From Candidatus Dormiibacterota bacterium (GTDB taxonomy: Bacteria > Chloroflexota > Dormibacteria > Dormibacterales > Dormibacteraceae): DNA of 64,000 nt. Positions 27,421-53,859 of the stretch are shown piece by piece. The notes under the pieces were generated by a model. It was not told the DNA's origin and ran no database searches. It worked only from the letters and a program-made list of their open reading frames with translations. Where the stretch lies: the NCBI GenBank assembly GCA_003169845.1, contig PNAG01000023.1:62001-126000 (forward strand). The letters run 5' to 3'. The position numbers were made by a program, and so were the translations under genes. Positions within the stretch are counted from its first letter, which is position 1. Every line of letters starts with the position of its first letter.

Positions 27421-27435
27421 AACCCTGCCTGTTAA
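27421..27435 (-). promoter_or_regulatory. Repeated motif TTAACAGGCAGGGTT upstream of comEA
   Basis: One of four copies. It lies 12 bases beyond the tRNA-Gln 3' end and 36 bases upstream of the comEA -10 box, both measured from its first base. Sequence identical to the copy at 36447. Confidence 0.55.
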
Positions 27436-27446
27436 CGGATACGGGC

Positions 27447-27520
27447 TGGTTCCGGGAGAAGGATTCGAACCTTCGGTCGAGGATCCAAAGTCCTCTGCCT
27501 TACCGCTTGGCCATCCCGGA
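27447..27520 (-). tRNA. tRNA-Gln (anticodon TTG), CCA encoded
   Basis: The minus strand reads TCCGGGA at the 5' end, pairing fully with TCCCGGA before A-CCA. The anticodon arm is GAGGA-CTTTGGA-TCCTC, giving anticodon TTG (glutamine, codon CAA). The T arm is GAAGG-TTCGAAT-CCTTC. It lies 59 bases upstream of comEA on the same strand. Confidence 0.95.
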
Positions 27521-27607
27521 TCGAGCCCCAACACACTAGCGCGGAGAGCCCGGACGCTTGGTTCGGGCTGCGTGACCTCCGGGTGGGCTGCGGCGTTGGG
27601 TCTTTTG

Positions 27608-28006
27608 ATGAGGAACGTCCTGCTGGGGACGCTGGTTTTGGTGATGTGCGCGTGCGGTGTATACCGCTTTCCTGGAAACACGCCTGCCAGCACCGGAACC
27701 GTGACTGGCACGGTGGTCGCACTTCCGTGCTTTCCGGTCGAGTCGGCAGGGGCACCGCAATGCGGCGGCCGGCCGGTGGCTGGGTTGGAGATCGACTTCA
27801 CGCACGGTGATGCGAGCGCGAAGGCGGTGACGGACTCGACGGGCCACTACTCCGTGACGCTGGCGAGCGAGACCTGGTTGGTTCACGTCGCGACGCGCAT
27901 GCGCATCATCAGCGGCCCGGCGCAGGTGAACGTGGCGCAGGGCTCCACGGTGTCTGCGAACTACGTCGTCGACTCAGGAATCCGGGTGCCCGTCCCTCAG
28001 CAATAG
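27608..28006 (+). CDS. Small lipoprotein with carboxypeptidase-regulatory-like domain
   Basis: A 132-residue secreted protein. The ATG at 27608 gives a lipoprotein signal (MRNVLLGTLVLVMCACG) with Cys at the lipobox. The mature part starts TGTVTGTVVALPCFPVES and continues GLEIDFTHGDASAKAVTDSTGHYSVTLASETWLVHV, the Ig-like sandwich pattern of carboxypeptidase regulatory-like domains. The listed upstream start at 27572 adds residues ahead of the signal and is less likely. No specific function can be given. Confidence 0.7.
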   Translation: MRNVLLGTLVLVMCACGVYRFPGNTPASTGTVTGTVVALPCFPVESAGAPQCGGRPVAGLEIDFTHGDASAKAVTDSTGHYSVTLASETWLVHVATRMRIISGPAQVNVAQGSTVSANYVVDSGIRVPVPQQ

Positions 28007-28025
28007 TTCGCGTCCTACTAAATCC

Positions 28026-28069
28026 CACCCGCCGCCCCCCACCCACCCAAGGGGGAACGTGGGCGGGTG
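28026..28069. terminator. GC-rich hairpin between convergent genes
   Basis: CACCCGCC pairs with GGCGGGTG around a 28-base C-rich then G-rich interior that can pair further (CCCCC with GGGGG). It lies 20 bases past the lipoprotein stop and about 60 bases past the leuS stop, so it may terminate from both sides. No T-tract follows. Confidence 0.4.
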
Positions 28070-28100
28070 ACGAGAGTATTGGGCGGCGCCGGCCGTGGTC

Positions 28101-28115
28101 AATCCAGCCTGTTAA
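28101..28115 (-). promoter_or_regulatory. Repeated motif TTAACAGGCTGGATT downstream of leuS
   Basis: Identical to the copy at 53845. It starts 16 bases past the leuS stop. TACTCT lies 37 bases downstream on the minus strand, but no minus-strand gene begins there: it would be an antisense or non-coding transcript facing the lipoprotein gene and, further on, tRNA-Gln. Confidence 0.5.
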
Positions 28116-28130
28116 GGACGCGCTCCGTGG

Positions 28131-30572
28131 CTATGGGACCAGGTTGATCAGCCGGTCCTGGACGTAAACGATCTTCGACGGGGCGCCGCCGTTCAGCGCC
28201 GCACGGACCTTCTCGCTCCGCATTGCGGCCTCCAGCGCCGCCGCCTCTGCAAGCCCGGCATCAACGGTGAGACGGTCGCGCAGCTTCCCCCCCACCTGGA
28301 CGACGAGCGTCACCTTGGGTTCGGCGGCCGCGGCAGGGTCGAAAACCGGCCACGATTCGTCGGCCAGCATTCCGCGCCCGCCAATTCTCTCCCACATCTC
28401 CTCCGCAACGTGCGGAGCGAGCGGGTTCAGCAGCTTGATCAGCGTCCTTACCGCACCATCCCACTCCGGGTCCCGTGCTCCTCCGCGCTGCAGGTGGTCC
28501 TGCATGGTGTTGGCCAGCTCCATGAGCGCGGCCACCGCGGTGTTGAAGCGCAGCTCGTCGAAATGCTCAGTCACCTTGCCGGTGGTCTGCGCGACCTTTC
28601 GGCGCAGCACCGCCACGTCGGCGCCAGAGCCTTCGACCACGATCGTCGACGGTTCGATCACGAGCCTCCAGACGCGCTGCAGGAACCGCGAGACACCGTT
28701 GAGCCCCGCATCGGTCCACTCGACGTCCTCCTCGGGTGGGCCGATGAACATCTCGTAGATTCGCCCTGCGTCAGCGCCCTGCGCTGCGACCAGCTCGTCA
28801 GGCGATACGCCGTTGCCCAACGACTTCGACATCACCTGCCCGAATCGCTTCACCATCCCCTGGTTGAAGAGCCGCGTAAATGGCTCAGAGACGGCGAGCA
28901 ACCCCGCATCGTGCAGGACCTTCGTGAAAAAGCGCGAATAGAGAAGATGCAGGATGGCGTGCTCAACGCCACCCGTGTACTGATCGACGGGCATCCACTG
29001 GTTGGCCAGCTCCGAGTCGAAGGGCCGTGTCGTCTCGTGAGGGCTTGCGTACCGCAGGAAGTACCAGGACGAATCGATGAAGGTGTCCATCGTGTCCGTC
29101 TCGCGTCGCGCCACCTGCCCGCACTTCGGGCACGTCGTCTCGAAGAACGACGGGTTTTCCGACAGCGCTTTGTACTCCTTCGGCAGCAGGACGGGCAGAT
29201 CAGCCGCCGGGACAGGCACGATGCCGTCGGTCGGGCAGTAGACGATCGGGATCGGACAACCCCAGTAGCGCTGGCGCGAGATCAGCCAGTCGCGCAGCCG
29301 GTACTTCACCGCCCGCTTGCCCTTGCCCTGGGCTTCCAGCCACGCGATGACTCGCTCGATCCCCGTCGCCGCATCGAGACCTGAGAACTGGCCGGAGTTC
29401 ACCATCACGCCGGGTCCGACGTATGCCTCGCGCAGATCGCCCTGCGGCGCGTCGGGCGGGGCGATCACCTCCCGGATGGCCAACCCGTACGTCTTCGCGA
29501 ACTCGAAGTCCCGCTCGTCATGCGCCGGCACGGCCATGATCGCGCCCGTGCCGTATGTCATCAGGACGTAGTCCGCGACCCAGATCGGCACCTCCTCGCC
29601 GTTGACCGGATTGACCGCGAACCCGCCGGTCGCCACCCCTGTCTTCGCGTGCTCGGTGGAGAGGCGATCGATCTCGCTCGCCTTGCGGGCTTTCTCCACG
29701 TACTCCTTGACGCGCGCCCGATGCTCGTCCGTGGTGATCCGCTCCACCAGCGGGTGCTCGGGTGCGAGGACCATGAACGTGGCGCCGAACAGCGTGTCCG
29801 GCCGCGTGGTGTAGATCCGCACGGTCTCGTTGTCCAGGCCCACGACCGGGAAGTCGACTTCCGCCCCGTGACTGCGCCCGATCCAGTTCGTCTGCATCAC
29901 CCGCACCTTGTTCGGCCACTTGTCCAGAAGGGCAAGGTCGTCGAGCAGTCGATCCGCGTAATCGGTGATCTTGAAGAACCACTGCTCGAGGTCGCGCTTC
30001 TCGACCTCCACGTCCGGGTGCCTCCAGCAACGGCCATTGATCACCTGCTCGTTGGCCAGCACCGTCTTGTCGACCGGGCACCAGTTCACCGGGGCCATCG
30101 CCCGATACGCCAGCCCCCGCTCGTAAAACAGGAGGAACAGCCACTCGGTCCACTTGTAGTAGTCCGGCATGCAACTGGTGACCTCGCGGTCCCAGTCGTA
30201 GAGGATCCCCATCATCTTCAGCTCGCGCTTGCCCTTCTCGATGTTGCCGAGCGTCCACGTCTCCGGATGCAGGTTCCCCCGCTTCATCGCCGCGTTCTCG
30301 GCGGGCAGCCCGAACGCGTCCCAACCGAACGGGTGAAGGACCTCGAAACCCTGCATCCGCTTCATGCGCGCGAGCACATCACCCATCACGTAGTTGCGCG
30401 CGTGCCCAACGGTCAGGTCGCCAGACGGGTACGGATACATGACAAGGTCGTAGAACTTTGGCTTCGGCGAGCTGTCCGACGCCTTCATCACGCCGCGCTC
30501 GGCCCACACCTTCTGCCACTTGGGCTCGATCTCCTGTGGGATATATCCGCTACGCCGTGACCTGGACTCCAT
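28131..30572 (-). CDS. leuS: Leucyl-tRNA synthetase
   Basis: An 813-residue class I synthetase. It has the HIGH-type motif in [20 protein letters not shown], the CP1 editing domain ([42 protein letters not shown]), the zinc region [23 protein letters not shown] as [10 protein letters not shown], and a C-terminal anticodon domain ending DRLINLVP. It charges and proofreads tRNA-Leu. The start overlaps the EamA gene by 23 bases; TAAAAT lies 9 bases before the ATG. Confidence 0.96.
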
Positions 30573-31398
30573 GGGGTTTGAATTTTAGATGCGCGAGTTC
30601 ATGGCCCACGATCGCGACCAACATCAGCCCGGCGCCCAACGCCTGCAGCAGTCCGAATCGCTGCCCCGCCAGCACGACCGCCGCCACCACCGCCCACGCC
30701 GGCTCGGTGGTCAGGATGAGGGCCGTGCGGCTCGCGCTCAGGTGCTGCTGCGCCCAGGTCTGGATGTAGAACGCCAGCGCTGACGCGAACACGCCGGTGA
30801 TCGCGATCGCCAGCCACACGTCGGGGCTCGGAGCCTGCAGGGACCATGACCCACCCGCGCTGAAGATCACCCCCCCGGTGCCCATCTGGAGCATGGCCAG
30901 CGGCGCCGAGCGCAGGCCCGGCGACCAGCGGCTTAGCAGCACGATGTGCAGCGCGTAGAGGAATGCGCATGCGACGGTGAGGAGATCGCCGAGCCCGAAC
31001 CCGGATGGCCCCCCGACCAGCAGCACGGTGCCGCCCAGGGCTGCTGCGACCGCCACCAGCGTGTACCACCGCAGCGCCACGCCGAAGACGCGATCGATCA
31101 GCGGCGTGAACACCACGAACAGTCCCGTGATCAGCCCGGAGTTGCCGGGGCTGGTCATCGTCAGCCCGACGGTCTGCGTGAGGTAACCCGCCGCGAGCAC
31201 CCCGCCCGCGACGACGCCGACCCACACCTCCCGGCGCGTGGGCAACCGACGGACCAGCACGGCCATGACGAGGAATGCCAGGATGAAGCGGAGCTGGAGA
31301 AACGGCAGGGTCGGGTAGTGTGTGAGCGCGTCTTTGACTAGGACGAAGGTCCAGCCCCAGACGGCCGTGACCATGAGCAAGAAGAGGACGTAGATCAA
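30550..31398 (-). CDS. EamA/DMT-family transporter
   Basis: A 282-residue protein with about ten transmembrane helices in two EamA halves. The first half starts [20 protein letters not shown], includes [24 protein letters not shown], and the second half begins near [17 protein letters not shown] with [17 protein letters not shown] close to the end. Such proteins export or import small metabolites such as amino acids or nucleotides; substrate unknown. The start codon TTG shares its first base position with the ATG of the divergent HIT gene. Confidence 0.88.
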
Positions 31399-31883
31399 TG
31401 AAGCGACTGTGGGCGCCGTGGCGCATGGAGTACATCGCCGGCGAGCAGCGGCCCGGCTGCCTGTTCTGCCGTGTGATCGAGCACCCCGACGACAAGGATG
31501 CCGAGCTCGTCGTCTGGCGTCCCGAAGGCGCGATCGTGATGATGAACAAGTTTCCGTACAACCCCGGCCACACTCTCGTCGCTCCGGCGCGTCATCTGCC
31601 CGGGCCCGAGAACCTCGACGACGAGCAGACCACCCTGTTGATGCGCGCGCTGCGCCGGACGGTCGACGTGCTGCGCAGCACGCTGAATCCCGAAGGCTTC
31701 AACATAGGCACGAACATCGGGCGCGCGGCGGGCGCGGGGATTCCGGACCACGTGCACTTTCACGTAGTCCCGCGCTGGACTGGCGACACCAACTTCATGC
31801 CGGTGATCGACGACGTCAAGATCGTAAACGAGGCTTTGGAGAAGACCGCCGAGAAGCTGCGGGAGGCTTTCGCAGGAAGCTGA
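31398..31883 (+). CDS. HIT-family nucleotide hydrolase / Ap4A phosphorylase-like
   Basis: A 161-residue protein starting [13 protein letters not shown], typical of the bacterial HIT group, with CLFCRVIEHPDD, FPYNPGHTLVAPARHL and the catalytic histidine triad in DHVHFHVVPRW. It would cleave nucleotide phosphoanhydride or phosphoramidate bonds such as in Ap4A. The last 68 bases overlap the convergent amidohydrolase gene. Confidence 0.93.
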   Translation: MKRLWAPWRMEYIAGEQRPGCLFCRVIEHPDDKDAELVVWRPEGAIVMMNKFPYNPGHTLVAPARHLPGPENLDDEQTTLLMRALRRTVDVLRSTLNPEGFNIGTNIGRAAGAGIPDHVHFHVVPRWTGDTNFMPVIDDVKIVNEALEKTAEKLREAFAGS

Positions 31884-33333
31884 CCGCGCCGCCGACCACG
31901 GTCGCGACCACCTGTTCTCCGTCGACCACGGTCATGTCGCACAGCTTTCCCGGTCGCAGCGTGCCGAGGTCCTTTTCCATCCCCACGGCGTAAGCGGCCC
32001 CCGACGTAAAGGCCCGCAGCGCAACCGCACGCGAGACCGCCAGCTCCGGATGCCAGCCGGCCTTGCGCCGCCACACGGTCGCCGCCTCGATGCCGGCGAG
32101 CGGGTCGGCCGTCTCCACCGGCGCGTCCGAGCCGAAGGCCAGCCGCGCATCCGCCCGCTGGAGTGCGCCCCATGCATAAGAGTGCGCCGTGACTTTCGGC
32201 CAGTACCGGTCGGCCAGCTCGCGGTCCGCCACCGCGTGGATCGGCTGCATGGAGGCAATTACGCCGATGCGCGCGAAGCGCCTCACGTCCTTGGGGTTGA
32301 CGCACTGGGCGTGCTCGATACGCGGCCGCCAACCACGCCACGCCTCGCGGAGTGGAGCGAGCGCGTCGAGCGCCCGGCGCACGGCGCCGTCTCCGATCGC
32401 ATGCAGGCAGACGTTGAGCTCGGCGCGAGCGGCGCGCTGGACCAGGTCGACCAGGTCCGTCTGAGTGAGCCGTGCGGTGCCCGACCCGTCGAGCATCTCC
32501 GCGGTGCGGCTGCCCAGCGACCCGTCGAGGAACGCCTTCACGCCCCAGATGCGGAGCCACTCGTCGCCCCAGCCCGAGCGCACGCCCATACGTTCCGCAT
32601 GGGGCAGGTCGGCGAGCGGAAGGTTGTAAGTGATCCGAACCGGCAACTGCCCTCGCGCGCGGAGCCTCTGCCACGAGCCGAATCCCCGCGCCGAGTCCAT
32701 GGAATGGACGCCCGTCAGCCCGAGTGCGGCCAGGTCCCCAAGCGCGCGCGCCATCGCTTCATCGAGCTGAGCCTCGCTCGGGTTTGGCACCAGCACGGCG
32801 ACCAGGTGCATCGCGGTCTCGCGCAAGATGCCCGTCGCTTCGCGGCGCTTGTCGCGGTCGATGGTGCCGCCCGGCGGGTCCTGGGTGGTGCGTTCGATGC
32901 CCGCGAGCTTCAGCGCGGCACTCGACACCCATGCCGAATGCCCGTCCTTGCGGCGCAGGTACACCGGGCGCCCGCCGGCCGCCTTGTCGAGCTGGACGCG
33001 GGTCGGAAACGCCGGCTCCAGCCACGCGTCGTTGTACCAGCCCGCGCCGAACACCCAACTGTCAAGCGGGAGCTTCTCCGACCAGGAGGTGACTCGCGCC
33101 AGCGCCGCGTCGAGACTCGGCTCGCCGGTGAGGTCGAGAGTCAGGTGCCGATCCGCGAGCCCTTCCAGGTGGACGTGCGAGTCGATCAGGCCAGGCCACG
33201 CGCGGCCGCGCATGCGGACGACCTGTGCACGGCGACCGGCCGCAGAACGCGCACCCTCCCCCACCGCCAGGATCCTGCCGTCGACGCCAGCCGCGACCTC
33301 AGGGACGCACCCAGCGAACAGCGTCGGCTGCAT
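31816..33333 (-). CDS. Amidohydrolase (YtcJ-like, family 3)
   Basis: A 505-residue metal-dependent hydrolase. The TIM-barrel core begins with WPGLIDSHVHLEG, continues with GWYNDAWLEPAFPTRVQLDKA and VYLRRKDGHSAWVSSAAL, has CLHAIGDGAVRRALDAL and RIEHAQCVNPKDV with metal-site His residues, and ends FGSDAPVETADPLAGIEAAT and GTLRPGKLCDMTVVD. The substrate is unknown. The ATG overlaps the acyl-CoA dehydrogenase stop by one base (TGATG), so the two are translated together. The tail overlaps the HIT gene. Confidence 0.88.
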   Translation of the reverse strand: MQPTLFAGCVPEVAAGVDGRILAVGEGARSAAGRRAQVVRMRGRAWPGLIDSHVHLEGLADRHLTLDLTGEPSLDAALARVTSWSEKLPLDSWVFGAGWYNDAWLEPAFPTRVQLDKAAGGRPVYLRRKDGHSAWVSSAALKLAGIERTTQDPPGGTIDRDKRREATGILRETAMHLVAVLVPNPSEAQLDEAMARALGDLAALGLTGVHSMDSARGFGSWQRLRARGQLPVRITYNLPLADLPHAERMGVRSGWGDEWLRIWGVKAFLDGSLGSRTAEMLDGSGTARLTQTDLVDLVQRAARAELNVCLHAIGDGAVRRALDALAPLREAWRGWRPRIEHAQCVNPKDVRRFARIGVIASMQPIHAVADRELADRYWPKVTAHSYAWGALQRADARLAFGSDAPVETADPLAGIEAATVWRRKAGWHPELAVSRAVALRAFTSGAAYAVGMEKDLGTLRPGKLCDMTVVDGEQVVATVVGGAVSFLRKPPAASRRSSPKPRLRS

Positions 33334-34466
33334 CACAGGCCGTAGGTCTTGGCGATGATCTCCTTCATGATCTCGTCCGTCCCGGCGCCGATCCGCGCCA
33401 GGCGGGCGTCGCGCCATGCGCGCTCGACCGGGAACTCGCGCATGTAGCCGTGCCCGCCGAGGATCTGGATCGCGTCGTCGGCCACCTCGCACGCGACCTG
33501 CGTCGCGAGGAGCTTGGCCTGCGAGACCTCGCGCACCGGGTATTCGCCGTCGTCCCACTGCTTCGCGGTCTGGTAGACGAACGACTGGATCGCGGCAATC
33601 TTCGTCCCCATGTCGACGAGCTTGTGCTTGATCACCTGGAACTGGGAGATCGGCTGGCCGAACGCCTGGCGGTTGCGGGCGTAGTCCATCGTGTACTCGA
33701 AGACGCGCGCGGCCCCGGCGATCGCACCCGCGGCCGTGATCATGCGCTCGCCCTGGAGCTCCCACATCAGGTTCTTGAACCCCTCCCCCTCGGCGCCGAT
33801 GAGGTTGGCGGCAGGCACGCGGCAGTCTTCGAACAGCAGCTCGGCCGTGTCGGACGAATGCATACCGAGCTTCTGCAGCGTGCGTGTGACCTGGAAACCC
33901 GGCGTGCCCTTCTCGATCACGAGCAGGTTGAATCCCGTATGGCCGCGCTCGCGGTCGCCCTTCGCCACCACCAGCGCCCAGTGGCAGCGAGCCCCGTTGG
34001 TGATGAAGATCTTGCGGCCGTTGACGACGAAGTGGTCGCCGTCGCGGCTCGCCACAGTCGTGATCGCTGCCACGTCCGAGCCGGCGTCCGGCTCCGTGAT
34101 CGCGAGGGCGGCGATCTGCTCGCCGCGGATGGCGGGCGCCAGCCACCTGCGTTTCTGCTCCTCGGTGCCGAACTTGAACACCGGCGGCGTGGCCATCTCG
34201 GCCTGGACCGCAACCGCCATGCCGAGTCCGCCGCTCGCGACCCTGGCCAGCTCCTCGGACAGGACGATGGCCGAGAAGTAGTCACCGCCCTGCCCTCCGT
34301 ACTCCGGCGGATAGTGCAGGCCGAGGAAACCGAGCTCGCCGAACCGCCGGAAGATGGAGTCGGGGAAGGTCTTCTCCTCCCATTCCTCGAGGTGCGGCTG
34401 GACCTCTTTCTCGAGGAACTTCCGGATGTGCAGCCGGAGCTCCTCGTGGGCGTCGGTGAAGTACAT
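33333..34466 (-). CDS. Acyl-CoA dehydrogenase
   Basis: A 377-residue flavoenzyme that oxidises an acyl-CoA at C2-C3. It has YPPEYGGQGGDYFSAIVLSEELAR, the FAD-binding AITEPDAGSDVAAITT, GRKIFITNGARCHWALVV, RNRQAFGQPISQFQVIKHKLVDM and QILGGHGYMREFPVERAWRDARLARIGAGTDEI at the C-terminus. I use the ATG at 34466 (MYFTDAHEELRL): TAAACT lies 8 bases upstream, and the extra 27 codons of the longer frame are not like the family. First gene of a pair with the amidohydrolase. Confidence 0.93.
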   Translation of the reverse strand: MYFTDAHEELRLHIRKFLEKEVQPHLEEWEEKTFPDSIFRRFGELGFLGLHYPPEYGGQGGDYFSAIVLSEELARVASGGLGMAVAVQAEMATPPVFKFGTEEQKRRWLAPAIRGEQIAALAITEPDAGSDVAAITTVASRDGDHFVVNGRKIFITNGARCHWALVVAKGDRERGHTGFNLLVIEKGTPGFQVTRTLQKLGMHSSDTAELLFEDCRVPAANLIGAEGEGFKNLMWELQGERMITAAGAIAGAARVFEYTMDYARNRQAFGQPISQFQVIKHKLVDMGTKIAAIQSFVYQTAKQWDDGEYPVREVSQAKLLATQVACEVADDAIQILGGHGYMREFPVERAWRDARLARIGAGTDEIMKEIIAKTYGL

Positions 34467-34474
34467 CGACGGTG

Positions 34475-34480
34475 AGTTTA
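34475..34480 (-). promoter_or_regulatory. -10 box of the acyl-CoA dehydrogenase gene
   Basis: TAAACT on the minus strand, 8 bases before the ATG at 34466, giving a leader of one or two bases. Confidence 0.4.
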
Positions 34481-34509
34481 GGCCTGGACGGGCGGCCGGC
34501 AGCTTGCGG

Positions 34510-34515
34510 TATGAT
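34510..34515 (+). promoter_or_regulatory. Probable -10 box of the bS22-lemA unit
   Basis: TATGAT on the plus strand, about 110 bases before the bS22 TTG. The transcript leader would include the hairpin at 34571-34608. Confidence 0.4.
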
Positions 34516-34570
34516 TCCCGAGCCCCGCGCTGGGCGGGTGTCTCCATTTAGAAAATCAATCGTGTCTCAA

Positions 34571-34608
34571 CCCCGCGAACTCGCAGGCTACGCCTTGAGT
34601 TCACGGGG
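34571..34608 (+). promoter_or_regulatory. Leader hairpin just upstream of bS22
   Basis: CCCCG-c-GAACTC pairs with GAGTTC-a-CGGGG, 11 base pairs with one internal mismatch around a 14-base loop. It ends 7 bases before the AAGGAG ribosome site. Position and strength suggest control of bS22 translation or transcription, as in many ribosomal-protein leaders; this is inference. Confidence 0.5.
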
Positions 34609-34626
34609 ACCCCTTAAGGAGTTGGA

Positions 34627-34725: not shown

Positions 34726-34737
34726 GATCTAAGGCTG

Positions 34738-35382
34738 ATGGGCACCTGGATCGTTGTCGTCGTCGTCATCGTGGTGGTCGGCTGGCTGGTCCTCACCTAC
34801 AACGGCCTGGTCACGGCCCGCAACCGGACCCAGGAAGCCTGGTCTGAGATCGACGTCGAGCTCAAGCGACGCCACGACCTCATCCCGAACCTGATGAACA
34901 CGGTGCAGGGGTACATGGGGCACGAGCGCGGGACCCTCGAGGCGGTCACGAACGCGCGCGCGGCCGCCGTCTCGGCGGGCGCTTCAGGCGACCCCGCCAA
35001 GATCGGGCAGGCCGAGAACATGCTCAGCCAGAGCCTCCGCAGCCTGTTCGCGGTCTCTGAGAACTACCCCGACCTGAAGGCGATCGCGGCCTTCACCAAC
35101 CTCCAGGAGACCCTGACCGCCACCGAGGACAAGATCGAGTTCTCACGCCGCTTCTACAACGGCAACGTACGCGACTACAACATCAAGCTGCAGACCCTCC
35201 CGACGTCCCTGATCGCGGGCGCCCTGGGCTTCAAGCAGTTCGCCTTCTTCCAGGCCGATGAGGGCGACCGGGCCGTACCGCAGGTCAACTTCGGGCCCAC
35301 AGCGGCCTCAGGCCCTCCGACCCTCGGATCTTCAGGACCTCCTCCCGCCGCCGGCTCCTCCGGCCCCCCGACCCAGAGCTAG
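34738..35382 (+). CDS. lemA: LemA-family membrane protein
   Basis: A 214-residue protein: one N-terminal transmembrane helix (WIVVVVVIVVVGWLVLTY), then the LemA helical domain with YNGLVTARNRTQEAWSEIDVELKRRHDLIPNLMNTVQGYM, AENMLSQSLRSLFAVSENYPDLKA, FTNLQETLTATEDKIEFSRRFYNGNVRDYN and the closing FAFFQAD. A Pro/Gly/Ser-rich tail of about 40 residues follows. LemA proteins are widespread and poorly understood. Cotranscribed with bS22. Confidence 0.93.
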   Translation: MGTWIVVVVVIVVVGWLVLTYNGLVTARNRTQEAWSEIDVELKRRHDLIPNLMNTVQGYMGHERGTLEAVTNARAAAVSAGASGDPAKIGQAENMLSQSLRSLFAVSENYPDLKAIAAFTNLQETLTATEDKIEFSRRFYNGNVRDYNIKLQTLPTSLIAGALGFKQFAFFQADEGDRAVPQVNFGPTAASGPPTLGSSGPPPAAGSSGPPTQS

Positions 35383-36410
35383 CCACCAGACTTCACCCAG
35401 TCAGCGGCAAACCGCGCCCCGTAAGCCGCCACTGCCGCCGGATCGCCCGTCTCGATGTCCAGCTCGTGGTTGACGCCGAGCCCGCTCAAGGTCCAGTTCG
35501 CCGACCCAAGCACGAGCTCGCCGTCGAACAGACCGATCTTGGCGTGCAGCAGCGCCCCGCGAGGGATCGGATACCACCGGACCTCGACACCGCCCGACTT
35601 GAGCACCGCATACCCGTGGAGGTTGTACGGCTGGTTCGGGTCGAGCAGCACGCGGACATCAGCGCCGCGGCGATGGGCTTCCACCAGCTCCGCGATCACC
35701 TCCGGGTCGGTCAGCGTGTACACCTCGGCCAGCGCGCGCCGCGTCGCATGTACGAGCGCTCCCTCGAGCATCGAGCGGATCTCCTCGCCCGGCGCGGTTT
35801 GTGCGACCTCGCCCGCGATCCCGGCCAGCGGCGATGGGCGCCCGCCCGCAAGGCTCCAGTCCTGTTCGAAAATTCGCGCCACACGATCGACGTCGAACGT
35901 GACGTGGGTCTCCAGCACGTAGTCGTGGTTGCGGTCGCTGTGCTGACCCCAATTCATGCCGCCGACAGCAGCTTCGCCGTCCACGATCAAGAGCTTCACG
36001 TGGTCGATCTGGTGGCGGCCGTCATCCACGGGATAGACGCGCTCAGGTACGCCGAGCGAGTCGAGCACGGCCGCCGACCGGCGGCTGGGCACGACCGTCG
36101 GGTCGGTGATGACGCGGACGCTGACCCCGCGGCCGGCTGCGTCGCCGAGCTCCCGAACGATGTCCGCTCGACCGAGCTCGTACATCTCCACCATCACGCG
36201 ACGGTGCGCCGAGCCGATCAGCCCCCCTACCAGCTGGAAGATGCTGCCGTCCTGCCACAGGCGCACAGGCTGCGCAACCCCGGGGCCGGCCGGCGCGCCC
36301 GCGGCCGCCACGCCCGCCGCGGCCAGGGCCGGCACTGGATGGGCCGGGCTCGAGCAGCCCGCAAGGCAGAGGGAGAAGAGCAATGCCCAAACGCAGACCA
36401 CTCGAACCAC
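35379..36410 (-). CDS. Secreted phospholipase D-like lipoprotein
   Basis: A 343-residue protein with lipoprotein signal (VWALLFSLCLAGC). It has two PLD catalytic repeats: QIDHVKLLIVDGEAAVGGMNWG (about 137-158) and LLHAKIGLFDGELVLGSANW (about 287-306), each with H-x-K-x4-D and the following G/S-N pair. Family members hydrolyse phosphodiesters in lipids or nucleic acids (Nuc-type). Substrate not decidable. GTG start; TAGTTT lies upstream with the TTAACAGGC motif 36 bases further. Its 3' end overlaps lemA by 4 bases. Confidence 0.9.
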   Translation of the reverse strand: MVRVVCVWALLFSLCLAGCSSPAHPVPALAAAGVAAAGAPAGPGVAQPVRLWQDGSIFQLVGGLIGSAHRRVMVEMYELGRADIVRELGDAAGRGVSVRVITDPTVVPSRRSAAVLDSLGVPERVYPVDDGRHQIDHVKLLIVDGEAAVGGMNWGQHSDRNHDYVLETHVTFDVDRVARIFEQDWSLAGGRPSPLAGIAGEVAQTAPGEEIRSMLEGALVHATRRALAEVYTLTDPEVIAELVEAHRRGADVRVLLDPNQPYNLHGYAVLKSGGVEVRWYPIPRGALLHAKIGLFDGELVLGSANWTLSGLGVNHELDIETGDPAAVAAYGARFAADWVKSGG

Positions 36411-36419
36411 AGCGGGCGA

Positions 36420-36425
36420 AAACTA
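36420..36425 (-). promoter_or_regulatory. Probable -10 box of the PLD lipoprotein gene
   Basis: TAGTTT on the minus strand, 9 bases before the GTG. The repeated motif starts 36 bases upstream. Confidence 0.4.
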
Positions 36426-36446: not shown

Positions 36447-36461
36447 AACCCTGCCTGTTAA
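36447..36461 (-). promoter_or_regulatory. Repeated motif TTAACAGGCAGGGTT upstream of the PLD gene
   Basis: Identical 15-mer to the copy upstream of comEA. It starts 8 bases after the stop of the SAM-hydrolase-like gene. Confidence 0.55.
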
Positions 36462-46037: not shown

Positions 46038-47113
46038 CAGTGGATCCTTCGGACCGTGGGCCTCCCGTCTACACCCTCTCCCCCTCGGGGAGAGGGTCGG
46101 GGTGAGGGGCTTAAGCCTGTATCACGCCCCCGAGAATGTCTTTCGATGATCTCCCTTACGACGTAGGTGGTCTTGGCCTGCGACTCGTGGTAGGTGCGAA
46201 TCGACAGCTCGGCCAGAAGCCCCATCAGGATGAACTGCACCCCGACGATGGCGAGGAAGACGGCGAGCAGCAGCAGCGGGTTGTTGTGCGCGTACGGGTA
46301 GGGCGGCAGGATCTTCTGAATGATCACGATCGCCGCGAAGACGAGGGCCAGGGCCCAGAGCCCAAAGGCGGCGAAGCCGAAGAAGTAGATCGGCTTGGTC
46401 GAGTAGCTCCCGAGCAGCTTGACCGTCATCAGGTCGAGCAGCACGCGCGAGGTCCGTGCCAGCGAATACTTCGACTTGCCGAACGATCGAGGCCGGTGGT
46501 TGACCGGCAGCTCCGTGATCCGCGCGCCGACCCACGAGGCGTACACCGGGATGAACCGGTGCATCTCGCCGTACAGCTTCACGTCCTGGATCACCTCGCG
46601 CTGATAGGCCTTGAGCGTGCAGCCGAAGTCGTTGAGCCGAACGCCGGTGACTCGCGCGATGATCCAGTTGGCGATCTTCGACGGCAGCACCCTCACGGCG
46701 TCGTCCTGCCGGTCCTTGCGCCAGCCGCTGACCACGTCATATCCCTCGTCGATCTTCTCGAGCAGGCGTGGGATGTCGTGTGGATCGTTCTGCATGTCGC
46801 CGTCCATGAAAACCAGGATCTCGCCGCGGCTGTTGTCGATTCCCGCCTGCACCGCCGCGGTCTGGCCGAAGTTCCGCCGGAAGCTCACGACCCGCACGTG
46901 CGCGTCACGCGAAGCGATCTGCCCCAGCCGCTCGGTGCTGCCGTCGCGGCTCCCGTCGTCGATGTACAGGACCTCGTACGACGTGTCGAGCGCCTCCAGC
47001 ACGGCTATCAGCTCCTCGTGCAGAGGCGCGACGCTCTCGACCTCGTTGTAAACCAGCACGATGACCGAAAGCCGCGGCGCAACAGTGGCAGCGTGCCGTG
47101 TCCGCGTAGCCAT
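46037..47113 (-). CDS. GT2 glycosyltransferase, dolichol/undecaprenyl-phosphate sugar synthase type
   Basis: A 358-residue protein. The catalytic GT-A domain starts LSVIVLVYNEVESVAPLHEEL, has the YIDDGSRDGSTERL and VFMDGDMQNDPHDIPRLLEKIDEGYDVVSGWRKDR signatures, then LNDFGCTLKAYQREV. Two C-terminal helices (IYFFGFAAFGLWALALVFAAIVII; LLLAVFLAIVGVQFILMGLLAEL) anchor it. It probably loads a sugar onto undecaprenyl phosphate. The ATG at 47113 has TACAAT exactly 6 bases upstream. The C-terminal SPSPRPSPRGGEGVDG is read from a palindromic repeat. Confidence 0.93.
   Translation of the reverse strand: MATRTRHAATVAPRLSVIVLVYNEVESVAPLHEELIAVLEALDTSYEVLYIDDGSRDGSTERLGQIASRDAHVRVVSFRRNFGQTAAVQAGIDNSRGEILVFMDGDMQNDPHDIPRLLEKIDEGYDVVSGWRKDRQDDAVRVLPSKIANWIIARVTGVRLNDFGCTLKAYQREVIQDVKLYGEMHRFIPVYASWVGARITELPVNHRPRSFGKSKYSLARTSRVLLDLMTVKLLGSYSTKPIYFFGFAAFGLWALALVFAAIVIIQKILPPYPYAHNNPLLLLAVFLAIVGVQFILMGLLAELSIRTYHESQAKTTYVVREIIERHSRGRDTGLSPSPRPSPRGGEGVDGRPTVRRIH
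46073..46113. repeat. GC-rich palindromic repeat inside the GT2 gene 3' end
   Basis: ACCCTCTCCCCCTCGGGGAG followed by AGGGTCGGGGTGAGGGGCTTAA is the inverted form of the element next to lon (TTAAGCCCCTCACCC...). It encodes the last residues of the GT2 protein. Confidence 0.8.
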
Positions 47114-47119
47114 TGGGGG

Positions 47120-47125
47120 ATTGTA
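47120..47125 (-). promoter_or_regulatory. -10 box of the GT2 gene, leaderless
   Basis: TACAAT on the minus strand, then CCCCCA (6 bases), then ATG. This rules out the longer frame beginning at 47242. Confidence 0.55.
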
Positions 47126-47137
47126 TGACGCCCAATT

Positions 47138-47199
47138 CACCTCCCCGCTGCCGGGGAGGTCCGCCCCGCTCGCAAAGCGGGAGCGGCGGGGTGGCGGGA
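47138..47199. repeat. GC-rich palindromic repeat, compound
   Basis: CACCTCCCCGCTGCCGGGGAGGT (47138-47160) is followed by CCGCCCCGCTCGCAAAGCGG with a GAGCGGCGGGG partner. Two adjacent hairpins share the ATTCACCTCCCCGCT core with the copy at 41058. Lies between the divergent GT2 and DUF2079 genes. Confidence 0.75.
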
Positions 47200-47217
47200 T
47201 GGTTCTTGCAGCAACCG

Positions 47218-47237
47218 GGTTAATTGATCGATTAACC
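47218..47237. promoter_or_regulatory. Inverted repeat, possible operator
   Basis: GGTTAAT-TGATCG-ATTAACC, a 7-base perfect inverted repeat with a 6-base spacer, ending 10 bases before the ATG at 47248. It is AT-rich against a GC-rich background. The inner TAACCT also looks like a -10 box, so a protein bound here would block the promoter. Confidence 0.45.
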
Positions 47238-47247
47238 TCCAAACAAG

Positions 47248-48705
47248 ATGACCGTCGACGCTATGAACCTGGCCGGGCGCGAGCGCGGCGACGCCCGGGC
47301 CGTGGCCTGGTGGATCTTCCCGACCCTGCCGCTCCTGGCCGCCGCGATCGGATTCGCTTGGACCCTGCGGGGCGAGCTGATGCGCCTCTATGGCATGACC
47401 GGCTCGGCCTGGGACTACGCCTACGACCAGCAGATCATCTGGAACATCTCGGTCGGGCAGGGCTTCTATTCGAGCTTCGCGCGCGCCAACTTCCTCGGCA
47501 TCCATTTCGAGCTCATCTTCGTGGTGCTCGCCGCGGTCGAAAAGCTGTGGCCGAACCCGGCCGTGCTGCTGATCTTCTCGTCGGCGGGACTCGCCGCGAC
47601 CGCCCCGGCCGCCTATCTCTTCTTCCGGTCGCTGCTCCCGGCCGACCGCCCGGAGTCGCCGTGGCTCGCGGTCGCGCTTGCAGCCCCGATTCCGTTCTGG
47701 GCCGCGATCCAGGAGGCCGCGCGCGATTTCTTCCACCCCGAAAACATGGCGCTGGCGCTCGCGCTGCTCGCGGCGTGGGCGGGAATCCGCGGCCATCGCG
47801 TGGCCATGTGGGTCCTGTGCGTGCTGGTCCTCACGTGCAAGGAGGACCAGGTCTACACGGTGGGCGTGATCGGGCTGCTGATGGCGGCGTACGGAGCACC
47901 GCAGATCCGAAAGCATTGGCGGTTCATCGTCTACCTCGCCGGCGCGTGGTTCCTCATCGGCACCGGCATCGTCCAGCAGCACTTCCGCAACGGCGGCTAC
48001 ACCGATTTCGTGTACTACCGCTGGCTGTTCGGCCTAGATCCCTCCATGCCAAGGACCTTGAGCACGGTCTTGGGCGCGGCGTTTCGGCCCAGCGCCCTGC
48101 TCGTGGTCGCGGTCGTGATCGCGAGCATGTTCGCGCTGCCGCTACTGGCGCCGCGCTGGTTGCTGCTGGTCATCCCGCCGTATCTCGCCGACGTGCTGAG
48201 CGGTCACAACCCGCAAAACGTGCTCAACCTCCACTACGTGCTGCTGCTGCTCTTCCCACTCATCGTCGCCGGCGGAGTCGGCGCCCGCAAGTTCTTGCAA
48301 ATGCGTTCGATCCGGCCCGTAATGGCGCTGGTCGCGATCCTGCCCGCCCTGATCCTCGCCTGGGGCACCGGGCGCTTTCCGCCCGCGTTGGGTGGCGATC
48401 AAAGTCTTTACGCGCATCCCAACGTGATCGCCGAGCTGCAGACGGCCACTTCGATGATCCCGGCCGACGCGCCCGTCAACGCGGACGACGGCCTTGCGGT
48501 GTGGCTCGCGAACCGGCACACGATCAACGACTTCCCGGATCGCCTCGACGGTACCTGCTATGTCGTGATCGACCGCCAGGCGTACCTGAGTGGGCCAACC
48601 CATCCCGATCAGCGACTGGCTGCGCTCAACCTGCTCCCTACCAGCGGCCGGTCGCTGCTCTATGACGACGGGCGCTTCCAGGTCTGGAGCCCGGTCGGGG
48701 ACTGA
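47248..48705 (+). CDS. DUF2079 polytopic membrane protein
   Basis: A 485-residue protein with about eleven hydrophobic segments. The N-terminal signature [52 protein letters not shown] is the DUF2079 pattern (D-Q-x-x-W-N, then G-x-H-F). The family is related to GT-C glycosyltransferases acting on lipid-linked sugars; no substrate is known. The last 90 residues are a soluble extracytoplasmic domain ([21 protein letters not shown]). It forms a divergent pair with the GT2-asnB unit. Confidence 0.85.
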
Positions 48706-48721
48706 TCAGACCCTGCTTTCG

Positions 48722-48727
48722 TACTCT
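48722..48727 (+). promoter_or_regulatory. Probable -10 box of metH
   Basis: TACTCT, 10 bases before the ATG, giving a leader of about four bases. No cobalamin or SAM riboswitch fits in the 32-base gap upstream. Confidence 0.4.
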
Positions 48728-48737
48728 TAGGGTCCAC

Positions 48738-51700
48738 ATGGCCGTGGCGATATCGACGAAAGAGCGTCTCGATCGGCTGTTCAAGCAGCGGATCGTGATT
48801 TTCGACGGGTCGATGGGCGTCATGCTCCAGCACAAGGGCCTCAGCGACGACGACTTCCGCGGCGAGCGCTTTCGCGATCACCCGAAGCCGCTCCGGAACA
48901 ACAGCGACGTCCTGTGCCTGACCCAGCCTGCGCTCGTCACGCAGGTCCACCGCGAATACCTCGAGGCCGGCGCGGACATCATTACGACCAACACTTTCAC
49001 CGCGACGCGCGTGTCGCAAGCCGACTACGGCCTGGCGGACGTCGCCTACGAGATGAACCTCGAAGGCGCCCGGCTCGCGCGCAAAGCGGCCGATGCGTTC
49101 GAGAACCGCTTCGTCGCCGGCTCGCTGGGCCCGACCAACGTCACCCTTTCCCTCTCGCCGCGCGTCGACGACCCCTCGTATCGCGAGGTCACGTTCGACG
49201 AGCTGAAAGACGGATACGCCGAGGCGGCACGCGCGTTGCGCGAGGGCGGCGTCGACTTCCTCCTCATCGAGACGATCTTTGACACGCTCAACAGCAAGGC
49301 CGCGATCGCGGCGGTGAAAGAGGTCGCACCTGAGATGCCGCTGTTCATCTCGATGACGGTGGTAGACCGCAGCGGCCGCAACCTCTCAGGCCAAACGGTC
49401 GAGGCGTTCTGGACGTCGGTCGAGCACGCGCAACCCTTCGCGGCCGGCATCAACTGCTCGCTCGGCGCGACTGAGATGCGGCCGTACATCGCCGCCTTGT
49501 CGCGAGTCGCGCCGGTCTACGTCTTCTGCTACCCCAACGCAGGGCTGCCGAACGCTTTCGGGGGCTACGACGAGCAGGCGCCCACCACCAGCCGCCTGCT
49601 GAAGGAGTTCGCGGAGGCCGGTTATCTGAACGCCGCCGGAGGCTGCTGCGGCACAGGGCCCGAACACATCCGGCAGATTCGCGAGGCCGTCGACAGCATC
49701 GCCAGGCGCGAGGTTCCCGAGCGCGTTGGCCGGACGAGGTTCAGCGGGCTCGAGCCCTTTGAGATCGGGCCTGACTCCGGCTTCGTGGTCGTGGGCGAGC
49801 GCACCAACGTCACGGGGTCGATCCGGTTCCGACGCCTCATCGAGAGCGGCGACTTCACCGGGGCCGTGCAGGTCGCGCTCGACCAGGTCCGGGGCGGCGC
49901 CAACCTGCTCGACGTGAACATGGACGCGGACCTCCTCGACTCCGAGGCCGCGATGGTGCGGTTCCTCAACCTCATCGCGACCGAGCCCGAGATCGCGCGC
50001 ATTCCGATCATGGTCGACAGCTCCAAGTGGACGGTGCTCGAGGCCGGGCTGAAGTGCGTGCAGGGCAAGGGCGTCTGCAACTCGATCAGCCTGAAGGGCG
50101 GCGAGGAGGCGTTCCTCGAGCAGGCGCGCAAGGTGCGCGAGTACGGGGCGGCCGCCGTCGTGATGGCCTTCGACGAGACCGGCCAGGCGGACACCTTCGA
50201 GCGCAAGGTGGCGATCTGCAGCCGCGCCTACAAGCTGCTCACCGAGAAAGCCGGCTTCGAGCCGGACGACATCATCTTCGACCCCAACATCCTGCCGATC
50301 GCGACCGGCATCGAGGAGCACGCCGCGTACGCAAAGAACTTCATCGACGCGACGCGGGAGATCAAGAGGCTCTTTCCCCGGGTGAGGGTGTCCGGCGGAG
50401 TGTCGAACCTCTCCTTCTCTTTCCGCGGCAACGACCGCGTCCGCGAGGCAATCCACTCGGCCTTCCTCTACCACGCGATCCTGGCCGGGCTGGACATGGG
50501 CATCGTCAACGCCGGCCAGCTGGTCGTCTACGAGGACATCCCGAAGGACCTGCTGGAGATGGTCGAGGACATCATCTTCGACCGCCGCCCCGACGGCACG
50601 GAGCGGCTCGTGGAGTTCGCCAAGTCCGTCACGGGCGCCGGCACCAAGCGCGAGAAGGACCTCGCCTGGCGTGAAGGTTCGGTCGAGGAGAGGCTCGCCC
50701 ATGCCGTGCTGCATGGAGAGGTCGAGTTCATCGAGGCCGACGCCGAAGAGGCCCGCCAGAAGTACGAGAAAGGTTTGCTCGTCATCGAAGGTCCGCTGAT
50801 GGACGGCATGAAGGTCGTGGGTGACCTGTTCGGCGCGGGCAAGATGTTCCTCCCCCAGGTCGTGAAGAGCGCGCGCGCGATGAAGCGCGCGGTCGCCTAC
50901 CTCGAGCCGTTCATGCAGGCGGAAAAAGAAGCCTCTGGAAGCCGGCGCACGCGCGGCAAGCTGGTGCTCGCGACGGTCAAGGGGGATGTGCATGACATCG
51001 GAAAGAACATCGTCGGCGTCGTGCTCGCATGCAACAACTACGAGGTCGTGGACCTGGGCGTCATGGTGCCGGTCGACAAGATCCTTGACACCGCGATCGA
51101 GCTGGGCGCGGACGTCGTGGGCCTCTCGGGACTCATCACACCCTCGCTCGACGAGATGGTCGTAGTCGCGAAGGAGATGACGCGGCGCGAGTTCAAGATC
51201 CCGCTGCTGATCGGCGGCGCCACCACCTCAAAACAGCACACCGCGGTGCGCATCGCGCCCGCGTACGACGGGTCAACGGTCCACGTGCTCGACGCCTCGC
51301 GCGTGATCGGCGTGGTCTCCGACTTGCTCGACGACGAGCGCCGCGTACCGTTCGACCGCGACAACCGCGTCCTGCAGGAGAAGCTGCGCGCGCAGCACTC
51401 GACCTCGCGGCGCACGCTGCTGACGCTCGCCGATGCCCGCGCGAAGCGGCAGCGCCTCGCATTCGACGACCTGCCCCGGCCGCCTTTCACCGGCACGAAG
51501 GTGGTCGAACCGAAAATCTCCGTGCTGCGCGAGTACATCGACTGGACCTTCTTCTTCCATGCCTGGGAGCTCAAGGGCAAGTTCCCGGCCATCCTTGACA
51601 GCCCCTCGCACGGCGCGGTTGCCCGTGAGCTGTTCAGCCACGCCGAAGAGATGCTCGATGAGATCCAGGCCAAGGGCTGGCTTCACGCCAAGGGCGTTTA

Positions 51701-52361
51701 CGGCTACTGGCCGGCCCGCGCGGAGGGCGACGACATCGCGCTGGAGAACGGGGTGCGCTTTCCCATGCTCCGCCAGCAGGTCGACCACGGCGACGACAAG
51801 CCGTATTTCTCGCTCGCAGACTTCATCGCCCCCGGCCAGGACCACCTCGGCGCGTTCGCCGTCACCGCGGGCCTGGGCGTGGACGAGCTGGCGGAGCGAT
51901 TCCAGGCCGAGCACGACGACTACCGGGCGATCATGGTCAAGGCGCTCGCCGACCGCCTCGCCGAGGCGTTCGCGGAATACCTCCACGAGGTGGCGCGCCG
52001 CGAGTGGTACGAGAAAGGCCCCAAGCTCTCCGGCGAGGACCTGATCGGAGAGCGGTACCGTGGCATCCGCCCGGCTTTCGGCTACCCGGCATGCCCCGAC
52101 CACTCGGAGAAACACAAGCTGTTCGACCTGCTCGACGCGCGGTCGATCGGGATGGACCTCACCGAGTCAGGCGCCATGACCCCCACCGCCGCGGTGGCCG
52201 GGCTTTACTTCGCCCACCCGCAGTCGAAGTACTTCATGGTCGGCAAGGTCGGCCGTGACCAGGTCGAGGACTACGCGCGCCGCAAGCAGATACCGATCAC
52301 GGAAGCGGAGCGCTGGCTGCGGCCCATCCTGGGCTACGAGGAATCTCCCCCCAACCCTTAA
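48738..52361 (+). CDS. metH: Cobalamin-dependent methionine synthase
   Basis: A full-length 1207-residue enzyme, four modules in order. Homocysteine/zinc domain (about 1-325) with [12 protein letters not shown], the zinc Cys in [12 protein letters not shown] and [11 protein letters not shown]. Methyl-tetrahydrofolate domain (about 345-620) with [16 protein letters not shown]. Cap and B12 domain (about 640-880) with the cobalt-ligand motif [13 protein letters not shown] and [18 protein letters not shown]-activation domain (about 905-1207) with [12 protein letters not shown] and [17 protein letters not shown]. It transfers methyl from methyl-THF to homocysteine. Confidence 0.97.
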
Positions 52362-52400
52362 CCCGATTCCCCACAGGCGCCCGGCATACTGGATCGCCTC

Positions 52401-52655
52401 ATGGAAGCCGAGTTCGAGGAGCTCATCCACAGCAGTCAGGGGATGCTGTCAGCGAACGAGGCCAGCGAGCTGCGCGAGTTCATTGGGGCGCGTCAGTACG
52501 CGCTTGCACTTGAAGCTCTGTGCGGCATCTTGCTCGACGAGAACAAGCACGTCACCCCCAAGCTTTACTCCAGGATTCATGGCCTGGTAGAGGTAACGGA
52601 CGGAGTGGACCCATCCGTCATCGACAGCCTGAGGGCGGCCGTCCGGTACGACTAG
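52401..52655 (+). CDS. Small acidic protein, possibly MafI-like
   Basis: An 84-residue helical protein: FEELIHSSQGMLSANEASELREFIGARQYALALEALCGILLDENKHVTPKLYSRIHGLVE. The spacing of LSANE, ALALEALC and the following helix resembles MafI-type small immunity proteins, but the match is by eye and weak. CATACT lies 10 bases before the ATG. It ends with a 4-base convergent overlap with the HNH nuclease gene. Confidence 0.6.
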   Translation: MEAEFEELIHSSQGMLSANEASELREFIGARQYALALEALCGILLDENKHVTPKLYSRIHGLVEVTDGVDPSVIDSLRAAVRYD

Positions 52656-53812
52656 TCCGGACCGTGCGCGGGCAGACCGAAGGTGATCGTCGGCGGAATG
52701 GTCACCATCCGTCCTTCCTCGCCGCGGACGATCTGCCACTTCCCTTCATGGACCATCCAGTGATGGCGATGACACAAAAGCACGAGGTTCTCCTGTTCGT
52801 TCGTGCCGCCGTGAGTCCAGTGCACGAGATGGTGCCCCGACGACCAGGTCGCAGGCCGCTCGCAGCCCGTCCACACGCACTGTCCGTCGCGGACGTTGAG
52901 CGCCTTGCGAGCAGGACCTGAGATCACCCGCTTTGCCCGCCCGACATCGATGACCATCGAGTCCGAGCCGAGCACGATCCGCGTTATCGAGGCGTCGCAG
53001 GCCAGCCTCTCCACAGTTTTGGACGAGATCGGAACCGAGAGCTCCATGTTGGCCGCCGACGCGCCGGGCAGATCACGCAAGGTCTCGAGAGAAGCAGTCA
53101 CCATCAGGTGCGTTCGCTGACCCGCCTGCTGAGGGATGAGGCCTAAGTCCAGGGCGTGCATTGCAAGCTCGACCGCGGCGTCCGCCACCCGTTGGTCCCT
53201 TCCCCGATCGTCGTGGGCGCCAGACTTCCGCGCGAGAGGCTCCAGAGCTGTGCGCAGGACCGCTCCTCCCTCGGGATCAAAAATCCCACTCACAAGCAAC
53301 GACCCATCCGTGGTGGTGCTCAATTTGAGCCTGCGGTTCTGCACCTGCTCCGCCTGCTCCTCCGCATAACGCTTTGCGTCCGCGGCGTGCCGGTAGTGGG
53401 TGCAGATGAAGAAGAACTTGCCGGGAGAGTTCTCGCGAGCTTGGTCGATCAGAGCCCTCTCGTCGAACCGATCGCCAAGCGCGTTAGCCGTCCTGGCCAT
53501 CGTGGTCACGTGTGCATAGCCGATCGCGCCGCCGGCCACGGCCTGGACGCTCTCCGGCATCCTGTGCAGGGCCTCACCTACCGCGACACTGTTGGCGGCC
53601 GCCCCACTGGTCATGTGGCAGTTGAAGCGGATCCAGTCGATGGGGCTGACAAAGCCGTCGTCGTCATATTTGTTGCGAGTCGCAAACTCGGCCGCAAGGC
53701 GGGCGATGTAAAGGTCCTGCGCGTCTCTTGCGCGACACGCGCGGACGAACGTCTCAGCCAGCTCATCGTCAAAGAGCCGCTTGGGGTCGATCTCGCTGGG
53801 CGCGCTGTCCAT
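52652..53812 (-). CDS. HNH endonuclease with DUF222 (13E12-type) domain
   Basis: A 386-residue protein. The DUF222 helical region covers about 10-265 (WIRFNCHMTSGAAANSVAVGEALHRMP, GGAIGYAHVTTMART, GSLLVSGIFDPEGGAVLRTALEPL). A C-terminal HNH nuclease follows: RDGQCVWTGCERPATWSSGHHLVHWTHGGTNEQENLVLLCHRHHWMVHEG. DUF222-HNH proteins are abundant in actinobacteria; most are uncharacterised or mobile-linked. TAAGAT lies exactly 6 bases before the ATG, and the TTAACAGGC motif begins 35 bases upstream of that box. Confidence 0.93.
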   Translation of the reverse strand: MDSAPSEIDPKRLFDDELAETFVRACRARDAQDLYIARLAAEFATRNKYDDDGFVSPIDWIRFNCHMTSGAAANSVAVGEALHRMPESVQAVAGGAIGYAHVTTMARTANALGDRFDERALIDQARENSPGKFFFICTHYRHAADAKRYAEEQAEQVQNRRLKLSTTTDGSLLVSGIFDPEGGAVLRTALEPLARKSGAHDDRGRDQRVADAAVELAMHALDLGLIPQQAGQRTHLMVTASLETLRDLPGASAANMELSVPISSKTVERLACDASITRIVLGSDSMVIDVGRAKRVISGPARKALNVRDGQCVWTGCERPATWSSGHHLVHWTHGGTNEQENLVLLCHRHHWMVHEGKWQIVRGEEGRMVTIPPTITFGLPAHGPD

Positions 53813-53818
53813 AAGTCG

Positions 53819-53824
53819 ATCTTA
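53819..53824 (-). promoter_or_regulatory. -10 box of the HNH nuclease gene, leaderless
   Basis: TAAGAT on the minus strand, then CGACTT (6 bases), then ATG. Confidence 0.55.
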
Positions 53825-53844
53825 CGAACATATGTTTGAGACGC

Positions 53845-53859
53845 AATCCAGCCTGTTAA
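53845..53859 (-). promoter_or_regulatory. Repeated motif TTAACAGGCTGGATT upstream of the HNH gene
   Basis: Identical to the copy at 28101, and the identity extends one more base (G). It starts 19 bases after the aldehyde dehydrogenase stop. Confidence 0.55.

Follow-up and report, generated by a model that had tools for sequence, protein, structure and literature searches.

The closest described precedent for the system reported here comes from streptococci, where CiaR sites (NTTAAG-N5-TTTAAG), located 10 bp before the -10 box, drive protein genes as well as small RNAs, termed csRNAs, that are tied to competence. Streptococcus pneumoniae has five csRNAs; csRNAs restrict competence through comC and possess terminators (PMC3091779, PMC4507080). 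The subject of our study is a 15-base element that is present in four copies in a stretch of 64,000 nucleotides from Candidatus Dormiibacterota bacterium (contig PNAG01000023.1, positions 62,001 to 126,000; hereafter the window), and that very probably serves as control site for a gene-uptake programme not known before. In bacteria in which natural competence is controlled by ComK, ComX or CRP-S/Sxy, the regulon typically includes comEA/comEC, dprA, ssb and comM. With respect to promoter architecture, class II activator promoters of the CRP/FNR/PrfA type or the OmpR/PhoB type carry the activator site near -41, together with a weak -35 and a canonical -10 box, and PrfA boxes begin with TTAACA.

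The four copies are exact and all lie on the minus strand, as a first-pass annotation of the window had reported, and a mismatch scan found no site with fewer than three mismatches in the rest of the window. With up to three mismatches there are six sites, as compared to a mean of 1.3 in shuffled sequence, and none of 100 shuffles reached six. The copies and their promoter elements are:

27421..27435, minus strand: activator-type site TTAACAGGCAGGGTT of the comEA promoter (exact match; comEA of other genera has this site at this spacing)
27394..27399, minus strand: -10 box TAGCCT of comEA, spacer 21 (from sequence)
28101..28115, minus strand: site TTAACAGGCTGGATT behind leuS, promoter of a putative G-rich RNA (exact match; kept behind leuS in G005 and G028)
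28073..28078, minus strand: -10 box TACTCT of the leuS copy, spacer 22 (from sequence)
36447..36461, minus strand: site TTAACAGGCAGGGTT of the PLD lipoprotein promoter (exact match; kept at PLD in 10 loci)
36420..36425, minus strand: -10 box TAGTTT of the PLD promoter, spacer 21 (from sequence)
53845..53859, minus strand: site TTAACAGGCTGGATT of the HNH promoter (exact match; kept at HNH in 5 loci)
53819..53824, minus strand: -10 box TAAGAT of the HNH promoter, spacer 20 (from sequence)

Each copy thus has a TAnnnT box, and the fixed register with the -10 boxes of comEA, PLD and HNH that the annotation had described holds at spacers of 21, 21 and 20, to which the leuS copy adds a fourth at 22. 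The spacer of 20 is also found at the HNH orthologues of G023, G028 and G029. The copies lie 7–18 bases (8–19 in the annotation) past the ends of minus-strand genes, namely tRNA-Gln, leuS, an S-adenosylmethionine (SAM) hydrolase-like gene, which encodes a SAM-hydroxide adenosyltransferase, and an aldehyde dehydrogenase gene.

The element recurs well beyond the window. The genome from which the window derives (3.69 Mb) has 13 exact TTAACAGGCNGGNTT sites, against zero for the reversed pattern, and nearly all sites with at most one mismatch have a -10-like hexamer about 21 bp downstream. Across the family, a site with a -10 box at 18–21 bp was found in 32 of 42 genomes (our order-level Dormibacterota sample consists of these same 42 genomes), whereas the control gave none. 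The view of the first-pass annotation that chance would hardly produce such a repetition was therefore well founded. A strict scan of the whole collection returned 31 stretches, 30 of which come from soil metagenome-assembled genomes labelled Chloroflexi or Dormibacterota; the sole match labelled Cyanobacteria (L133) is AT-rich, lacks an open reading frame (ORF) and probably is a chance match. An information profile calculated from 164 sites yields the extended site cTTAACARSCWGGGTTs, in which TTAAC, GGG and T are near-invariant, and shows no separate -35 consensus. The idea that the site is carried by a mobile repeat was rejected, because the flanks diverge and the targets are orthologous genes. 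A literature search with the motif string gave no relevant match among those listed.

Before comEA of two further families in the class, the motif was not found. There, the comEA upstream regions (L245-L266) share other conserved-looking elements, e.g., TTAAGTTTGCGCAAG..ACAC, which perhaps reflect a different regulator. In diverged genera (L243 and L244 of genus g14, L241 of g4), TTAACAGGCCTGGTT-like sites precede the same type IV secretion system (T4SS) operon that is a target in the motif-bearing genera; these sites more closely resemble an inverted repeat, AACAGGCCTG(G)TT.

The distance between site and -10 box is strikingly constant, being 21 bp in 164, 22 bp in seven and 20 bp in four of the 175 sites with a -10 box at 20–22 bp. 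Part of this set had been preselected at 18–21 bp, and the unselected sets, which were found via virB6-like genes or via the RNA described below, therefore count more; the sites found via virB6-like genes have the same spacing of 21. With start positions inferred from the -10 box, the site is centred near -41 and lies on a weak -35, which is the fixed placement seen in class II activator promoters.

The first-pass annotation had proposed an activator or a sigma-factor element covering about -48 to -34, and it is the activator version that is strongly supported by recurrence, fixed spacing and conserved targets. An extended -35 read by an uptake-specific alternative sigma factor, comparable to ComX or SigH elsewhere, would also account for a long, near-invariant upstream element at a fixed distance to the -10 box. 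However, the gap of 21 bp exceeds a sigma spacer, spacers of 20–22 occur, the -10 is an ordinary TAnnnT box, and the specific -35 and -10 at sigma spacing that mark ComX- or SigH-type promoters were not found. Furthermore, in one group of RNA promoters (L003, L153, L154, L164, L169, L170, L296) the -10 box (TACGCT) is located 11 bp rather than 21 bp past the site, i.e., exactly 10 bp or one helical turn nearer, while the distance from the -10 to the RNA is unchanged. Judged from the sequence of these natural variants, a one-turn shift would be easier to reconcile with a DNA-bound activator than with a sigma-factor element. The canonical -10 together with this nearer subgroup thus makes the sigma version unlikely. 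An activator as close to the -10 as in this group is nonetheless unusual and lacks an explanation.

Strong conservation and overlap with the -35 region would equally suit a repressor operator that holds the uptake genes and RNAs off until release. Yet, it would be uncommon for operators to stay at a single upstream position with respect to the -10 in nearly 200 promoters, and the promoters have no conserved -35 of their own that would make them strong unaided, so that we consider repression quite improbable. As to the second proposal of the annotation, a processing or termination element at the 3′ end of the upstream genes, the position of the window copies just past gene ends is all that speaks for it. 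The constant distance is that to the downstream -10 box, the downstream genes belong to orthologous families, one copy is located between the divergent tRNA-Lys and prgI genes, and the site contains neither a hairpin nor a U-run; this proposal is hardly credible. Between tRNA-Lys and prgI (L026:1501-1530; G000:C12:173863-173888), there are in fact two overlapping sites on opposite strands, offset by 11 bp.

About half of the sites precede a putative RNA element (76 with and 74 without RNA), and the RNA-less sites lead to about 11 protein families that recur across genera:

12 loci with site: small T4SS-cluster membrane protein
10 loci with site: PLD lipoprotein
8 loci with site: virB2-like, then virB6/TrbL-like
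8 loci with site: prgI, then virB4/TraG-like ATPase
7 loci with site: ssb
6 loci with site and -10 box: comEA
5 loci with site: DUF222-HNH
3 loci with site: secreted protein
3 loci with site: cpaB-like, then cpaF-like
2 loci with site: YgjP metallopeptidase
1 locus with site (own genome): comM-dprA

Thus, scanning the genome and its relatives for distances to the -10 box, as the first-pass annotation had suggested, gave a fixed distance of about 21 bp and recurring downstream families. Its proposal that DNA-uptake and nuclease genes belong to one regulon is strongly supported by this recurrence across genome and order, by the spacing and by the conserved targets. A search that started from the virB6-like protein and made no use of the motif found the site with a spacing of 21 at nearly every such operon in the motif-bearing genera and at nearly every ssb gene beside it, so that ssb has the site in many genomes. 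The T4SS protein is present, too, in genera without a recognisable site, and the machinery therefore appears to be older than this control. At one locus (L105:301-1177; G017:C20), two copies of the virB2-like gene flank an inserted ORF that encodes a ClpX-type zinc finger and may encode a LuxR-type helix-turn-helix as well.

Given the prominence of T4SS genes among the targets (virB2/virB6-like, prgI-virB4), it may be asked whether a conjugation-type T4SS or the release of DNA, rather than natural transformation, is what the regulon serves. Against this stand comEA-comEC and comM-dprA among the targets, and the regions read showed no relaxase; we give this possibility a minor, though not a negligible, chance. 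Both comEA and comEC are under the signal, with comEC directly 3′ of comEA in the window, and so are dprA, comM and ssb, which act in the recombination of incoming DNA. The genes concerned in the window and their neighbour are:

26803..27387, minus strand: comEA (SLBB and helix-hairpin-helix; Pfam)
24593..26806, minus strand: comEC (Pfam Competence)
23106..24065, minus strand: DNA polymerase III delta subunit (holA-like), downstream of comEC on the same strand (Pfam)
35379..36410, minus strand: secreted lipoprotein with two PLD/HKD domains, a putative nuclease (PLDc_2, 2.8e-38)
52652..53812, minus strand: DUF222-HNH endonuclease (Pfam)

comEC and comEA overlap by 4 bp and probably form one operon. 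The ATG of comEA is located 6 nt past the -10 box, and a leaderless comEA mRNA is therefore likely; many targets have their ATG about 6–7 nt past the -10, and many of their mRNAs are probably leaderless as well. Between tRNA-Gln and leuS, on the strand opposite to both, the window also holds a small ORF of 144 aa (27572-28006, plus strand), which has a lipoprotein-signal-like start and no Pfam match.

The RNA element that follows the remaining sites starts near the expected transcription start and consists of a hairpin with the loop (T)GGGGGNGGG, a short linker and then GGGNGGGCCC. A covariance model (R1) detects 15 copies with E <1e-3 in the own genome, a sixteenth (E 0.3) being split by a 38-bp repeat, and relatives have up to 16 copies per genome. 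The stem covaries, with a score of 0.226 as against 0.136 in shuffled alignments (0 of 500 shuffles), and the mean stem is 5.45 as against 4.38 (standard deviation 0.13). The linkage between RNA and site works in both directions: the site is located 49–68 nt upstream in 19/19 RNAs found by the RNA pattern, in all 15 significant model matches of the own genome and in 20/20 model matches of a further sample (one with four mismatches), and RNA and site are both present in 31 genomes and both absent from nine, with two discordant. The RNA loci are syntenic, forming 13 orthologous groups of 2–9 members and 11 singletons over several genera, and the exact A-type RNA pattern did not occur in the sample taken from the rest of the phylum. 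In Rfam searches, the window gave only its two tRNAs above the gathering threshold, and nine RNA loci had no credible match. The RNA family is thus undescribed.

One may object that these "small RNAs" are DNA elements, such as REP-like hairpins or recombination targets, which the promoter merely accompanies. Short G-rich hairpins do look similar to the REP-like ones that these genomes carry elsewhere, both kinds are entered by a 38-bp repeat at GGGGG^AGG, and no terminator was seen. On the other hand, the promoter is in register at practically every copy examined, the RNA start keeps its distance to the -10 box also at promoters whose site-to-box spacing is shifted by 10 bp, and the loci have syntenic orthologues over several genera as well as covarying stems. 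We therefore regard the DNA-element view as possible, with the weight of evidence against it, and the putative RNAs as probably real transcripts.

The 38-bp repeat itself, CAATCAGTARGTCCCATCCTYATCGCCGCTTGCGCGC, occupies the same position in each of these G-rich hairpins (GGGGG^AGG), and no duplication of the target was seen. There are 13 copies in G000, 29 in G028 and four each in G029 and G031; at least five lie inside RNA loops (L196:1501-1538, L197, L199, L203, L213), for which repeat-free orthologues exist (L029 vs L071, L003 vs L199), and others inside REP-like hairpins. It has the appearance of a very small mobile element that targets the loops of G-rich hairpins.

The leuS copy of the site has no ORF downstream, and is followed by a G-rich hairpin of its own:

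28015..28070, minus strand: putative second-type G-rich hairpin RNA, ends approximate (from sequence and fold)

This hairpin carries GGGTGGG, and GGGTGGG again past the stem (fold of -34 kcal/mol over 75 nt), and does not match the main covariance model R1. Two related genomes, of which one belongs to another genus, likewise have site and hairpin behind leuS, with sequence changes. It is best called a second, looser RNA type.

A peculiar property of the main RNA concerns its two GGGNGGG repeats, one located in the loop and the other downstream of it: N may be A, T or C, but is identical in the two. After correction of pattern artefacts, this holds for 76/76 RNAs (A 64, T 8, C 4), and a later sample adds 20/20 (A 16, T 3, C 1), for a total of 96/96; the apparent exceptions (L040, L080, L118, L125) turned out on inspection to be such artefacts. 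Within orthologous groups, N has switched jointly, twice between A and C and once between A and T. Since the repeats are direct, mutual pairing cannot account for their identity, which could stem from a partner or a fold that both share, or from copying. A partner in cis is not apparent, as CCCN′CCC is not enriched inside the RNA or within 300 nt on either side. We also considered a Shine-Dalgarno (SD) mimic, in which GGGAGGG titrates the anti-SD of 16S rRNA while leaderless competence mRNAs continue to be translated, but this idea is weakened by the T- and C-type RNAs, which mismatch the anti-SD, and by targets that have SD leaders. That the competence regulon has a multicopy small-RNA arm of about 16 loci, whose two GGGNGGG stretches per RNA are obliged to match, strikes us as a serious possibility that falls short of being probable. 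If true, this would be a new paired-recognition mode during DNA uptake, be it that both stretches bind the same kind of target, that they form a G-rich fold in two parts or that one repeat is actively copied from the other.

Taken together, we consider it likely that the 15-mer is the control site of a DNA-uptake regulon. In the mechanism that we favour, one transcription activator, probably a dimer, would bind the 15-mer at about -48 to -34, overlapping the weak -35, and recruit the housekeeping RNA polymerase to the TAnnnT box 21 bp away. It would thereby turn on a natural-competence regulon that comprises comEA-comEC, comM-dprA, ssb, a T4SS-like apparatus, the cpaB-cpaF pilus genes and the PLD and HNH nucleases, and along with it about 16 paralogous small RNAs per genome. 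More speculatively, each RNA might pair via its two identical GGGNGGG stretches with CCCN′CCC targets and tune translation in competence, though we put this dual base-pairing forward only tentatively.

Several points weigh against this picture. Among the targets and in the conserved neighbourhoods that were compared, no gene for the regulator was found. (A PadR gene near prgI was considered and dismissed, because it sits with its own MFS gene.) We infer activation (as opposed to repression), start sites and RNA transcription, as well as the activator's identity and signal and the action of the RNAs on targets in trans. In the RNA copies examined, no U-run terminator follows the conserved core, and several RNAs meet a convergent gene after no more than about 60 nt. 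Conjugation or secretion, rather than uptake, could be the role of the T4SS; it is only comEA/comEC, comM/dprA and ssb that speak for transformation, and of these, comM has a one-mismatch site in the one genome examined.

A link between recombination in soil populations and competence genes has been described (PMC7305173). For the Dormibacterota, a widespread group of uncultured soil bacteria, the signal gives a first testable map of the timing of DNA uptake and the genes involved; in the open-access literature searched, we found no paper that ties them to a competence signal or to small RNAs. The regulon adds families that are seldom listed in competence, namely T4SS, PLD, DUF222-HNH and YgjP, and the RNA family is large, with a strict internal identity rule that points to a directly testable mechanism.

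How, then, does this system compare to those already described? It differs from the ComK, ComX and CRP-S regulons in its DNA signal, in having no sigma-type promoter, in its T4SS component and in its large small-RNA arm. The likeness to PrfA boxes ends with the first half of the site, because the second half is WGGGTT here, not TGTTAA, and is not a direct repeat. The resemblance to CiaR and the csRNAs goes further: one regulator would serve protein genes and several paralogous intergenic small RNAs (15–16 in the own genome) from a TTAA-type site at a fixed distance to the -10. However, the Dormibacterota site, TTAACARSCWGGGTT, is located 21 bp from the -10 and does not form the CiaR direct repeat; the RNAs number about 16 instead of five, carry the paired GGGNGGG and show no terminator of hairpin plus U-run; and the core DNA-uptake genes are themselves inside the regulon. 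The logic is thus the same as that of CiaR, but with another DNA signal, another spacing and another RNA, and we therefore regard the Dormibacterota system as an analogue of the CiaR regulon rather than as a member or homologue of it.

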